In this document: positions 35,987 to 39,627 of the stretch, piece after piece
Numbering within the stretch: the stretch's first letter is position 1
Layout: every line of letters starts with the position of its first letter
From: an uncultured Saprospirales bacterium
GTDB lineage: Bacteria; Bacteroidota; Bacteroidia; Chitinophagales; Saprospiraceae
NCBI GenBank assembly: GCA_937899855.1
Contig: CALCCH010000667.1
Span: 1 to 56,058 of the forward strand
Direction of reading: 5' to 3'
Length of the DNA: 56,058 bases
Made by a program: the position numbers and the translations under genes
The notes under the pieces: model-generated
Databases searched by the model: none
What the model was told of the DNA's origin: nothing
Seen by the model: the letters and a program-made list of their open reading frames with translations, nothing else

Positions 35987-36913
35987 TTATTCCTTACCAT
36001 TGTCTTCTACTCCACCGCTAGACTTTACGCTGTGCTTGATCAGGTTTAAGTTGACCTGGTCAATTCCACTCCTTTGGGGAGATTCTTCAGTATCTTTCCT
36101 GGTGATCATGGCCTGAGCATTTCGCCGCAGGATTTCCATTTGATGATCGTGGCCAAATTTTGCGACCACCGACGCCGCCTCGGGAGTCTCTTGGACATCG
36201 ATGAGGCTTAGTAGGTCGTCGTCGGTGAGTATAACCCAGGTCCTGAATTGATTATTATTGTCCGCATTGGCCTCGGGTTTGATGGATTCAAGGTGGTGCA
36301 GACCGACATCTACGTGGAGTGTGGTCAGGGAAGCGACGGTCTTGAATTTAAAGGTCCGGTATTCATGGATGTAGTATTTGTTTTCCTTCTTCCTACGGAG
36401 CTTATTGAATTTGTTGTAATTGCTCCGAATAAAATGGTGCTTGACCAATACTTCGGAAAGGAAATAACCCGTGTGGAAGAAATGAACGTAGGCGACGTAT
36501 AAATAAGACAGGCAGATACCGACCGTGATGCCATCGATGGTCTGGGGTGGCAAATAGTAGTACAGCAATATCTTACCGATGGCCAAGGAGGAAAGCAATA
36601 GGGTAAAGACAAATTTGGTGATCCCCCAGATGACTTTTTTGCGGGGTCGTTTTTCATCTTCACTCCAATCATCGGGACTGGTGTCATTGTTTTCGAAATA
36701 GCGCTTTAAGTTTTGGTAGTATACCTTATCCCCCTCGTACCAGTGCAGCCCCACGGCGCACACCAGGTCCACGACAAAGGCACCGATTACCAGCCAAATA
36801 AATACGTCGGAGTAATTACTGGCTTGCCAAATGACGTACAAACCAAAAAATTCGGCAAGCAGCGCCGAGACGCAAAACAGGGCATCGGAGGAAAATTTTT
36901 CCGTCGTGAACAT
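35987..36913 (-). CDS. Four-helix membrane protein of unknown family, possibly 5'-truncated by an in-frame TGA
   Basis: From ATG 36913 the protein has 308 residues. Four hydrophobic stretches are visible (ALFCVSALLAEFFGLYVIW; WLVIGAFVVDLVCAVGL; FVFTLLLSSLAIGKILLYYY; GITVGICLSYLYVAYVHF), and the last ~150 residues are cytoplasmic-type and charged. No family is recognised. The same reading frame continues upstream through a single TGA (36953-36955) to an ATG at 37051, reading as a coherent 32-residue polar segment, which suggests that the ancestral protein was 354 residues long. It is the first gene of the envelope operon and is 39 bases before the Kazal lipoprotein. Start choice is uncertain. 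Confidence 0.65.
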   Translation of the reverse strand: MFTTEKFSSDALFCVSALLAEFFGLYVIWQASNYSDVFIWLVIGAFVVDLVCAVGLHWYEGDKVYYQNLKRYFENNDTSPDDWSEDEKRPRKKVIWGITKFVFTLLLSSLAIGKILLYYYLPPQTIDGITVGICLSYLYVAYVHFFHTGYFLSEVLVKHHFIRSNYNKFNKLRRKKENKYYIHEYRTFKFKTVASLTTLHVDVGLHHLESIKPEANADNNNQFRTWVILTDDDLLSLIDVQETPEAASVVAKFGHDHQMEILRRNAQAMITRKDTEESPQRSGIDQVNLNLIKHSVKSSGGVEDNGKE

Positions 36914-36952
36914 ACCCGGCAAAGAGACGGTCCCTTTGCCGTAGGCCTTCTT

Positions 36953-37051
36953 TCAGGTCAGCAACCATTTGATCTTGGTATCACTAGACGGCTCAAATAG
37001 GTTGTTATTATTTTTCTTACTAAACGGACTCGTTCTTTTTAAATCTGACAT
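36953..37051 (-). CDS. 32-codon upstream open frame, in frame with the membrane gene
   Basis: ATG at 37051 begins MSDLKRTSPFSKKNNNN and ends at TGA in 36955-36953. It has polar, lysine- and asparagine-rich composition and shares the frame of the following membrane gene. It is either the lost N-terminus of that gene or a short leader peptide. A 7-bp hairpin GGCAAAG/CTTTGCC begins 12 bases after the stop. Confidence 0.4.
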   Translation of the reverse strand: MSDLKRTSPFSKKNNNNLFEPSSDTKIKWLLT

Positions 37052-37410: not shown

Positions 37411-37752
37411 TCAGCTTCGGCTTAGTTTTCTCTTTGCTGATAAAACGCCACTTTTTTCAAATTCGTGATCGTTTTTTAAAATGGACCAGACGCTTCTGGT
37501 CGAGATGTTAAAACACTTGGAAAGAGCGGCTACCGCAGCCGTCTTATTTGCGTGAACCGGCAGACAAGTGGCAAATTCTTTGAGCACCGTGTAACGCTTT
37601 ACGGATGTTTTTGAGATCAACTCGTGGTCGATGAGATAAGTCACAAACCCTGCGTAACTCACCGGAATCCCGTAGGTTTCACAATAGGAATGATAACTCT
37701 CCACCAAGTGATCTTGAAACTTATCCATCAAGTACTTACGGGACTCTTCCAT
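37411..37752 (-). CDS. Small helix-turn-helix-like protein
   Basis: A 113-residue, mainly helical protein without a signal or membrane segment. The segment KTAAVAALSKCFNISTRSVWSILKN near residues 68-94 has the spacing of a helix-turn-helix (helix AAVAALSKCF, turn NIS, recognition helix TRSVWSILK). The N-terminal half (YLMDKFQDHLVESYHSYCETYG, VTYLIDHELIS) could dimerise. It lies just upstream of the envelope operon on the same strand, 360 bases away, and is divergent from the third helical paralog, so a regulatory role for either is reasonable. A hairpin overlaps the stop. No family is recognised. Confidence 0.6.
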   Translation of the reverse strand: MEESRKYLMDKFQDHLVESYHSYCETYGIPVSYAGFVTYLIDHELISKTSVKRYTVLKEFATCLPVHANKTAAVAALSKCFNISTRSVWSILKNDHEFEKSGVLSAKRKLSRS

Positions 37753-38030: not shown

Positions 38031-39446
38031 ATGAAAAAAACTAAACTTATCACCCTCCTCCGGACGCTGGACGACAAAGAAATGAAGGATTTTGAATCTT
38101 ACCTGACCAACCTGTACCGCCGGCAGGCAAAAGCAATCACCGTATTTAAATTCATCAAAAGGCAGTGGAATCGGATCCTTGCGGGCGAGTTGACCAAAGA
38201 AGAGGCACTAAAGTATCAGAGCGTAAAGGCACTTGACATCAAGGCCAAGGGGTTCAGCAACGTTCTCTCGACCTTGTACCTTTTTCTGGAAGAATTTTTG
38301 ATCCTCAACAAGATCAAGTCCAATCCATCGGGAGATCGCGACTTTCAGATGATACATATCTTAAAAGAACGAAAATTGAACCACCTGTACCAACAGCGAA
38401 TTAAATCTTTAAATAAGACGCTAGACAAAAAAACAAATGAAAATACCTGGAACAGACTAAAGAAGTTTCAGCTAAATCACCTCCACTTTTTTTACACCGG
38501 AACCAGCAAGATGAAGCTGACCATCGATAGCCTGGACGCCGCCATGGATAATTTGGATCTCTTTTACGGCCTAACCAAACTTAAGTACCTGTGTGAAATT
38601 ATCAATCGAAGCAACATACTTCAGCAGAGCTATAATTTGGAGCGCATGGAGTCTGCCGTTGGATACTGTCGTTTGTTTAAAAAAGAGATCGGCCGGATAG
38701 CGGATATTTACTTACTGGCTTACGAACTCTTACGAGAGGGTTTGGAGGAGACTTTCGCAAAATTGCGAGACCTCTACAGAAAAAATATCGGTGCGCTGTC
38801 CAAAGAAGATCAATCCATCATTTTGGGTTATCTAATTAATTTTACCATTGCCAAGGTACAGGAAAAGCCCAAGTTGTACTACGGGCAAACGTTTGCCCTG
38901 TACAAGCTAGCTTTAGAACAAGATCTGATTGTTGAGGATGGTATTATTTCTTCTTCCTCTTTTATAAATATTGCAACGGTCTCTACTCAACTGGGAGAGT
39001 TTACCTGGTTCAACGAATTTGTTAGCACGTACCAAATTTATCTCCCCCAGCGTATTCGACCCGAAGTATTACAAATTTGCTTTGCCCAGGAGGCTTTTGA
39101 AAGGGGGCGGCACAAAATGGTACTCGATTATCTAAAGCAGGTGAAATTTGCTACGCGGATCGATTTCGCACTGCGTGTAAAAGCACTAACCTTAAGAGCC
39201 CAATGGGAGTTGTTGGGCAATGACGAAACGGTAAGAGCTACCCTCAATGCTTTTGAAATGTACCTGCGCCGGAATAAGGAAATCAATGAACACACCCTCA
39301 AGGCCTACCTCAATTTTATTCGGTTCGCCAAAAAGTTATTCCGCAAGAACACCAAAGACTGGGCACAATTGGTACGGGAGATCGAAAGGCAAAAAGTCAT
39401 CTACTTTAAATATTGGCTAGTCGAAAAGGCCAAGGCTTTAAGGTAG
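38031..39446 (+). CDS. All-helical protein, distant paralog 3 (471 residues)
   Basis: A 471-residue, fully helical, basic protein. Its N-terminus (LITLLRTLDDKEMKDFESYL, VFKFIKRQWNRIL, GFSNVLSTLYLFLEEFLILNKI) follows the same plan as the two paralogs at 11155 and 13123: a short leader helix, an Asp/Ser-x-x-Glu-Lys/Met turn, and a second helix pair. The remainder is TPR-like. No HTH, enzyme or export motif is seen. Codon use is more A+T-rich than in the first two. A hairpin terminator follows at 39464, and the KGG peptide gene converges on it. The relation to the other two is by eye and is weaker than between them. Confidence 0.75.
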   Translation: MKKTKLITLLRTLDDKEMKDFESYLTNLYRRQAKAITVFKFIKRQWNRILAGELTKEEALKYQSVKALDIKAKGFSNVLSTLYLFLEEFLILNKIKSNPSGDRDFQMIHILKERKLNHLYQQRIKSLNKTLDKKTNENTWNRLKKFQLNHLHFFYTGTSKMKLTIDSLDAAMDNLDLFYGLTKLKYLCEIINRSNILQQSYNLERMESAVGYCRLFKKEIGRIADIYLLAYELLREGLEETFAKLRDLYRKNIGALSKEDQSIILGYLINFTIAKVQEKPKLYYGQTFALYKLALEQDLIVEDGIISSSSFINIATVSTQLGEFTWFNEFVSTYQIYLPQRIRPEVLQICFAQEAFERGRHKMVLDYLKQVKFATRIDFALRVKALTLRAQWELLGNDETVRATLNAFEMYLRRNKEINEHTLKAYLNFIRFAKKLFRKNTKDWAQLVREIERQKVIYFKYWLVEKAKALR

Positions 39447-39463
39447 GGAAGCGAAACAAGTGG

Positions 39464-39497
39464 ACCCGAGTAGCGCTTTTTTGAGCGCTACTCGGGT
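39464..39497. terminator. Perfect 14-bp hairpin between paralog 3 and the KGG peptide gene
   Basis: Arms ACCCGAGTAGCGCT (39464-39477) and AGCGCTACTCGGGT (39484-39497) with a six-base T-rich loop. It lies between two convergent stops and can serve both strands. Confidence 0.7.
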
Positions 39498-39504
39498 TCG
39501 TTCC

Positions 39505-39627
39505 TTAGGTGAGAATCGCCTCGGTGATTAAAATATCACTCTGGCCACCCTTCATCAATCGAAGTTGGTCCAGTTTAACGGCGTGCTTCCCAAAAGCGTC
39601 AATCGTTTTGTTTTTTGAATTTTTCAT
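39505..39627 (-). CDS. Double-glycine (KGG) leader peptide, RiPP- or bacteriocin-like precursor
   Basis: A 40-codon open frame, below usual gene-finder limits. It starts MKNSKNKTIDAFGKHAV, continues KLDQLRLMKGG and ends QSDILITEAILT. The leader is basic and amphipathic and ends in Lys-Gly-Gly, the site cleaved by C39-peptidase ABC exporters; the 12-residue remainder has no cysteine. This is the layout of Bacteroidota natural-product and bacteriocin-type precursors. The ATG at 39627 follows an A-rich stretch typical of Bacteroidota starts. A TATATTTT element lies far upstream near 39810. No exporter, radical SAM enzyme or cyclodehydratase gene is within the window. Coding potential is good, identity is an inference. 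Confidence 0.6.
   Translation of the reverse strand: MKNSKNKTIDAFGKHAVKLDQLRLMKGGQSDILITEAILT

Follow-up and report, generated by a model that had tools for sequence, protein, structure and literature searches.

We present here a 40-codon gene for a peptide with a double-glycine (KGG) leader, which is real and conserved and which, together with a convergent gene for a 471-residue protein of a family designated C1, forms a conserved, family-wide cassette in Saprospiraceae. The cassette was found in 56,058 nt of DNA from an uncultured Saprospirales bacterium (contig CALCCH010000667.1; here, the window). It is best read as a Rap-Phr-like peptide-receptor module in which export is of the C39 type rather than the Sec type, and we consider it somewhat probable that the locus is a peptide-signal/receptor cassette working like Rap-Phr or NprR-NprX. 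Peptide quorum sensing via intracellular TPR receptors has been described in Gram-positive bacteria, and communication in Bacteroidota is largely open; if true, the model adds peptide signaling in a Gram-negative group for which none is described. The cassette would make Bacteroidota peptide signaling directly testable, with likely signals readable from genomes, in a family abundant in wastewater and marine environments, and it would offer a candidate function for a large, uncharacterized paralogous family (30 C1 matches in the window's own genome). No description of this peptide-TPR pair was found in the open-access literature.

Peptide gene and conservation

The peptide gene (39505-39627, minus strand) starts with ATG and encodes MKNSKNKTIDAFGKHAVKLDQLRLMKGGQSDILITEAILT, which divides at the leader/core boundary into MKNSKNKTIDAFGKHAVKLDQLRLMKGG and QSDILITEAILT. 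A preliminary description of the window had proposed this KGG open reading frame (ORF) from the DNA letters, and the proposal holds: a 40-codon ORF is unremarkable by itself, and this one stands above chance because it is conserved, with its convergent position kept. When 298 family genomes were searched in tblastn fashion, a check that the preliminary description had called for, homologous peptides turned up in G106 (same genus, 47% identity) and G016 (another family member, 32% identity); these are peptides of 40 and 42 residues, each convergent with a homolog of the 471-residue protein, and the convergent site is likewise occupied in other genera. A survey of 398 Saprospiraceae genomes, queried with the peptide sequence alone (profile A3, E value of 1e-3 or better), found relatives in 38 genomes from 21 genera. 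Beyond Saprospiraceae, a class-wide search gave a single weak match, and single-protein scans of the peptide against Pfam and NCBIfam gave nothing above the cutoff. In close peptide pairs, nonsynonymous differences per site (pN) fell well below synonymous ones (pS), at 0.20 versus 0.75, 0.04 versus 0.27, and 0.25 versus 0.83. This pattern, which bears on the substitution-rate question raised in advance, indicates that the frame is translated and under selection.

Leader, core, and export

The leader (39544-39627, minus strand; residues 1 to 28, ending in LRLMKGG) is basic and amphipathic, and no hydrophobic, Sec-type signal segment was seen on reading the peptide. Across the family, counting from the GG (present in 42/42), position -12 is hydrophobic in 42/42 sequences, -4 is I, L, or V in 42/42, and -3 is K or R in 42/42, while -8 is Q in 29/42 and -7 is L or Q in 35/42. 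The double-glycine consensus recognized by C39 peptidases has hydrophobic residues at -12, -7, and -4 and a polar residue, usually E, at -8; the predicted family leader fits that pattern with Q in its place. The genome of origin encodes two C39 proteins, one a complete C39-ABC transporter followed by an HlyD-family gene and the other running off its contig, along with at least 20 KGG peptide ORFs, so that the genome-wide search for transporters and further KGG ORFs suggested beforehand was fruitful on both counts. A C39 peptidase is present in all 38 peptide-positive genomes, compared with 252/398 family genomes overall (hypergeometric P values of 9e-9 counting genomes and 1e-3 counting genera, which ignore relatedness and genome size). 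Confounded as it is by these two factors, the co-occurrence is support rather than proof. The intact C39-ABC/HlyD pair (contig C631; L068, 5574-13932) lies directly downstream of a gldKLMN-like cluster, recognized by eye as type 9 secretion/gliding machinery.

When 43 cores were aligned from the C terminus, they proved to have a common ungapped nonamer, I-[IV]-[IT]-[ED]-[DE]-[IV]-[IVL]-x-G. Its relative entropy is 9.8 bits, whereas 2,000 within-core shuffles averaged 2.4 and never exceeded 3.3. Position -5 is Asp or Glu in 41/43 cores. The window nonamer, ILITEAILT (39508-39534, minus strand), which we propose as the signal segment, matches except at the last position. Core length ranges from 9 to 26 residues; some cores consist of the nonamer only, and any residues separating KGG from the nonamer form a variable linker rich in Gly and Asp. 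Conservation in the predicted product thus lies at its C terminus, whatever the core length. The cores are strongly acidic and composed mostly of D, I, G, and E, with Lys/Arg below 1% of residues, almost no Cys, and few Ser/Thr. The variable core expected of a bacteriocin arsenal was not borne out, the nonamer being common to 43 cores. The view that a classical lanthipeptide is less likely agrees with this composition and with the lack of any sign of a modification enzyme nearby. As for the wider assignment to C39-processed peptides, either bacteriocin-like or signaling, the KGG leader and the C39 genes agree with it, and of its two options signaling fits better.

Convergent gene and its product

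The C1 gene (38031-39446, plus strand) encodes the 471-residue protein and ends 58 nt from the 3' end of the peptide gene. Of 56 stretches fetched around peptide matches, 37 carry a C1 gene convergent with and directly 3' of the peptide gene; two of the seven seeds (C500 and C232), which had been found via C1, were left out of the 37, and the pairing is not built into the result because the survey used the peptide sequence only. With the seed loci, 43 convergent pairs are known, having gaps of -11 to 387 nt, mostly 20 to 70 nt, with some gene ends overlapping. Between the two genes of the window lies a hairpin with a 14-bp stem (39464-39497), a probable shared terminator; the region 39440-39510 has a minimum free energy of -38.4 kcal/mol (z = -6.0). 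The shared bidirectional terminator of the preliminary description is accordingly plausible rather than proven, the T-rich tail being weak and on the minus strand only. Clear hairpins occur in about a third of the other peptide-C1 pairs.

Most peptide-linked C1 proteins are 439 to 538 residues long. Scanned singly against Pfam and NCBIfam, C1 had no match above the cutoff, but a profile of 24 C1 proteins matched consensus TPR proteins at an E value of 6.8e-6. The AlphaFold model (pLDDT, 82; pTM, 0.59) is all-helical, as had been predicted for this neighbor, which is nonetheless not mere context, being a recurrent partner with a TPR fold. Foldseek searches with the model gave weak E values (0.05); the best bacterial matches included NprR and the pLS20 Rap. 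In VIA-align comparisons with the PDB, the 10 best matches were all RRNPP receptors (Rap and NprR): residues 143 to 471 aligned with residues 7 to 344 of Rap (4gyo; Z = 15.8; 306 aligned residues), and residues 137 to 471 aligned with the TPR part, residues 67 to 397, of NprR (4gpk; Z = 14.9). The best match outside RRNPP scored a Z of 13.7, and a Z of 13.2 was obtained for LGN, likewise a TPR protein that binds peptides; Rap and NprR thus lead other TPR proteins by no more than about 2 Z units, and the TPR fold is a common one. Because this margin is small and helical repeats score high generally, we take residues 143 to 471 (38457-39443) as a predicted TPR superhelix similar in size and shape to those of RRNPP receptors, which is not a claim of homology; beyond the TPRs, no sequence similarity of C1 to RRNPP receptors was detected. 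N270 and N313 are among the conserved residues of C1.

Residues 1 to about 142 (38031-38456; pLDDT, 87) form a predicted helical domain in place of the HTH of NprR. It gave weak fold matches only (Z = 2.7 to 4.7), some of them to sigma region 4 and RpiR HTH domains. A SARP/OmpR-type winged HTH, considered for the N termini of C1 and of a second family, C2, on the basis of "FPGK"/"LWPND" motifs, found no support: there was no Pfam match, and the fold matches of the C1 N terminus were weak. No signal peptide is visible in C1, which is expected to be cytoplasmic.

C1 and C2 families

Three of the 30 C1 matches in the genome of origin are accompanied by a KGG peptide. KGG-linked C1 proteins fall mostly into one clade, with 6 label changes on the tree compared with a mean of 21.6 and a minimum of 15 after shuffling. 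The sampling itself favors such clustering somewhat, since the linked proteins represent many genomes whereas the unlinked ones come from a single genome and outgroups. A contig scan with C1, which reached 10 loci, showed no KGG peptide beside C1 relatives from outside Saprospiraceae. In a Mantel test, the correlation of C1 similarity with core similarity (r = 0.25) did not exceed that with leader similarity (r = 0.27). Peptide-less C1 genes of the genome of origin often lie divergent to secreted-protein genes (L023, L027, L028, L032, L035, L036, L038, L047, and others), an arrangement shared by C1 relatives at L054, L058, and L059 in other Bacteroidia, which suggests that C1 proteins regulate adjacent genes. 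A single in-frame TAG interrupts the matched region of 3 of the 30 C1 genes (L024, L039, and L043), one of which is the KGG-linked C500; these are probably pseudogenes or assembly errors.

In the C1 subclade of the window, a small protein of 113 residues, possibly with an HTH (37411-37752, minus strand), is encoded divergently from C1 and recurs in about nine loci as a conserved third component of the cassette. Proteins of 105 to 150 residues are encoded in this position in L064 (90-545), L066 (9065-9508), L067 (6670-6984), L130, L142, L143, L164, and L168.

C2 is a second helical family (about 470 to 500 residues, with a weak TPR signal) paired divergently with one or two KGG peptides. Six C2 pairs occur in the genome of origin (L086 to L090 and L235, on contigs C158, C670, C323, C550, C40, and C85, respectively), C276 (L237) looks like a seventh, and others come from further genomes of several genera (L186, L187, L189, L192, and L193). 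C1 and C2 did not match significantly when their profiles were compared (probability, 1.7%), and they are treated as separate; that two unrelated families are tied to like KGG peptides argues for a functional link between peptide and helical protein. With three convergent C1 pairs and six or seven divergent C2 pairs, the genome of origin holds about 10 candidate pairs.

Signaling model and alternatives

In the signaling model, a C39 ABC transporter would recognize the 40-residue precursor through its amphipathic leader, cleave it after KGG, and export the product; the signal would be the conserved acidic-hydrophobic C-terminal segment of about nine residues. The mature peptide would be taken up again by a cell and bound by the TPR superhelix of the convergent C1 protein, its proposed receptor/regulator, which may then change how active a partner protein or its own N-terminal domain is. 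The output would be the expression of neighboring genes, here perhaps that of the divergent 113-residue protein and elsewhere those of secreted proteins. The model draws support from the pairing, the clustering of linked C1 proteins in one clade, the TPR fold and its RRNPP ranking, the nonamer, the leader columns, the co-occurrence with C39, the intact C39-ABC/HlyD pair in the genome of origin, the low pN relative to pS, and the C2 pairs. Counted against it are the small share of C1 proteins linked to a peptide in the genome of origin (3/30), the lack of core-specific covariation with C1, and the thin Rap/NprR margin. The broader proposal, that Saprospiraceae possess an expanded RRNPP-like repertoire of peptide quorum sensing, separate from the RRNPP families of Gram-positive bacteria, in which C39 transporters export the signals and TPR receptors in the cytoplasm read them, we rate at slightly less than an even chance.

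RRNPP systems are known from Gram-positive Firmicutes and from mobile elements of these bacteria, and the five detection criteria for them include propeptide size (10 to 100 residues), receptor length (about 250 to 500 residues), a TPR domain, adjacency, and export by Sec, or by PptAB for SHP/PrgQ (PMC10075063). Here, the propeptide has 40 residues, the proposed receptor has 471 residues with a TPR domain predicted to bind peptides, and the genes are direct neighbors; because a KGG leader takes the place of Sec/PptAB export, we do not file the cassette as RRNPP, only as probably working like one. RRNPP receptors further have an N-terminal HTH or, in Rap, a three-helix bundle, for which the C1 N terminus offers weak fold matches, some of them to HTH domains. 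It resembles Rap-Phr, NprR-NprX, and PlcR-PapR in having a small propeptide beside a TPR receptor, a proposed C-terminal signal segment, multiple paralogous pairs per genome, and the best structural matches of C1, and it differs in its convergent genes, its export leader, the extra, unclassified N-terminal domain of C1, and the lack of detected sequence likeness of C1 beyond the TPRs. Many receptor-peptide pairs in one genome and a lineage-wide expansion also mark the Alo systems of Paenibacillus, which are Gram-positive, have RRNPP-like receptors, and use mature peptides that change transcription by experiment (PMC7425212). The leader pattern and the C39 enzyme in the genome recall the double-glycine C39 pheromones (e.g., of the streptococcal competence type) as well, with the difference that the paired gene here encodes a soluble TPR protein. 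Such pheromones usually have membrane histidine kinases as their sensors.

The same parts could be read in other ways. If C1 binds the 40-residue protein, or its C terminus, inside the producer and the GG is incidental, the peptide would be an unexported internal regulator. The presumed cytoplasmic location of C1, the absence of a linked transporter gene, and convergent, sometimes overlapping gene ends suggestive of local control all suit this reading; we nevertheless find it unlikely, as the double-glycine pattern is closely matched in 42/42 sequences and C39, which a purely internal role would not need, occurs in 38/38 peptide-positive genomes. KGG/C39 leaders are typical of bacteriocins, many paralogous copies exist in the genome, and helical immunity proteins adjoining bacteriocin genes are known, so the processed core might be a narrow-spectrum antimicrobial with C1 as the immunity protein of its producer. 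Cores this acidic and as short as nine residues, holding to one nonamer instead of diversifying, make that quite improbable, as does C1 itself: immunity proteins are usually small, unlike a 470-residue TPR protein, and most C1 paralogs lack a peptide, many being divergent from secreted-protein genes.

A third possibility, that the peptide is a RiPP precursor modified by enzymes encoded elsewhere, with C1 as a carrier or recognition protein, starts from TIGR04149 (GG_sam_targ_CFB), an rSAM-modified RiPP leader family, which 4 of 21 peptides match weakly (best E value, 3.9e-4) and which, like other Bacteroidota KGG leader peptides, has a short basic leader ending in KGG. The likeness stops there: the window peptide did not match the TIGR04149 profile, no CxxxCxxC (rSAM-type) protein occurs among 170 ORFs of at least 200 residues in pair loci, and no modification enzyme was noticed repeatedly beside the pairs. 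Together with an IIxEDII-type core poor in Cys, Ser, and Thr and a TPR partner gene, these points leave a RiPP precursor very improbable.

Other features of the loci

Upstream of the KGG peptide gene and on the same strand, at least six pair loci encode a protein of about 300 residues with an HTH-like start (L064, 2571-3458; L126, 2656-3564; L130, 2666-3565; L142, 2304-3221; L143, 4654-5562; L168, 3188-4093), of which four have a weak DUF5919 match. In the window, the ORF at 36953-37051 (MSDLKRTSPFSKK...) is similar to the beginning of a 365-residue gene in L067, the remainder of which may correspond to the ORF at 35987-36922; the window gene at 35987-37051 may therefore be frameshifted or interrupted. 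KGG peptide genes also occur apart from C1. One is conserved between genes for a UbiD-like decarboxylase and a secreted or membrane protein of about 500 residues (L063, L133, L136, L140, and L177). Others form tandem arrays of two or three with no adjacent C1 (L093, 6013-6497; L131; L159; L172), one of which adjoins a gene for an AraC-like membrane regulator and another of which has its peptide repeated three times almost unchanged.
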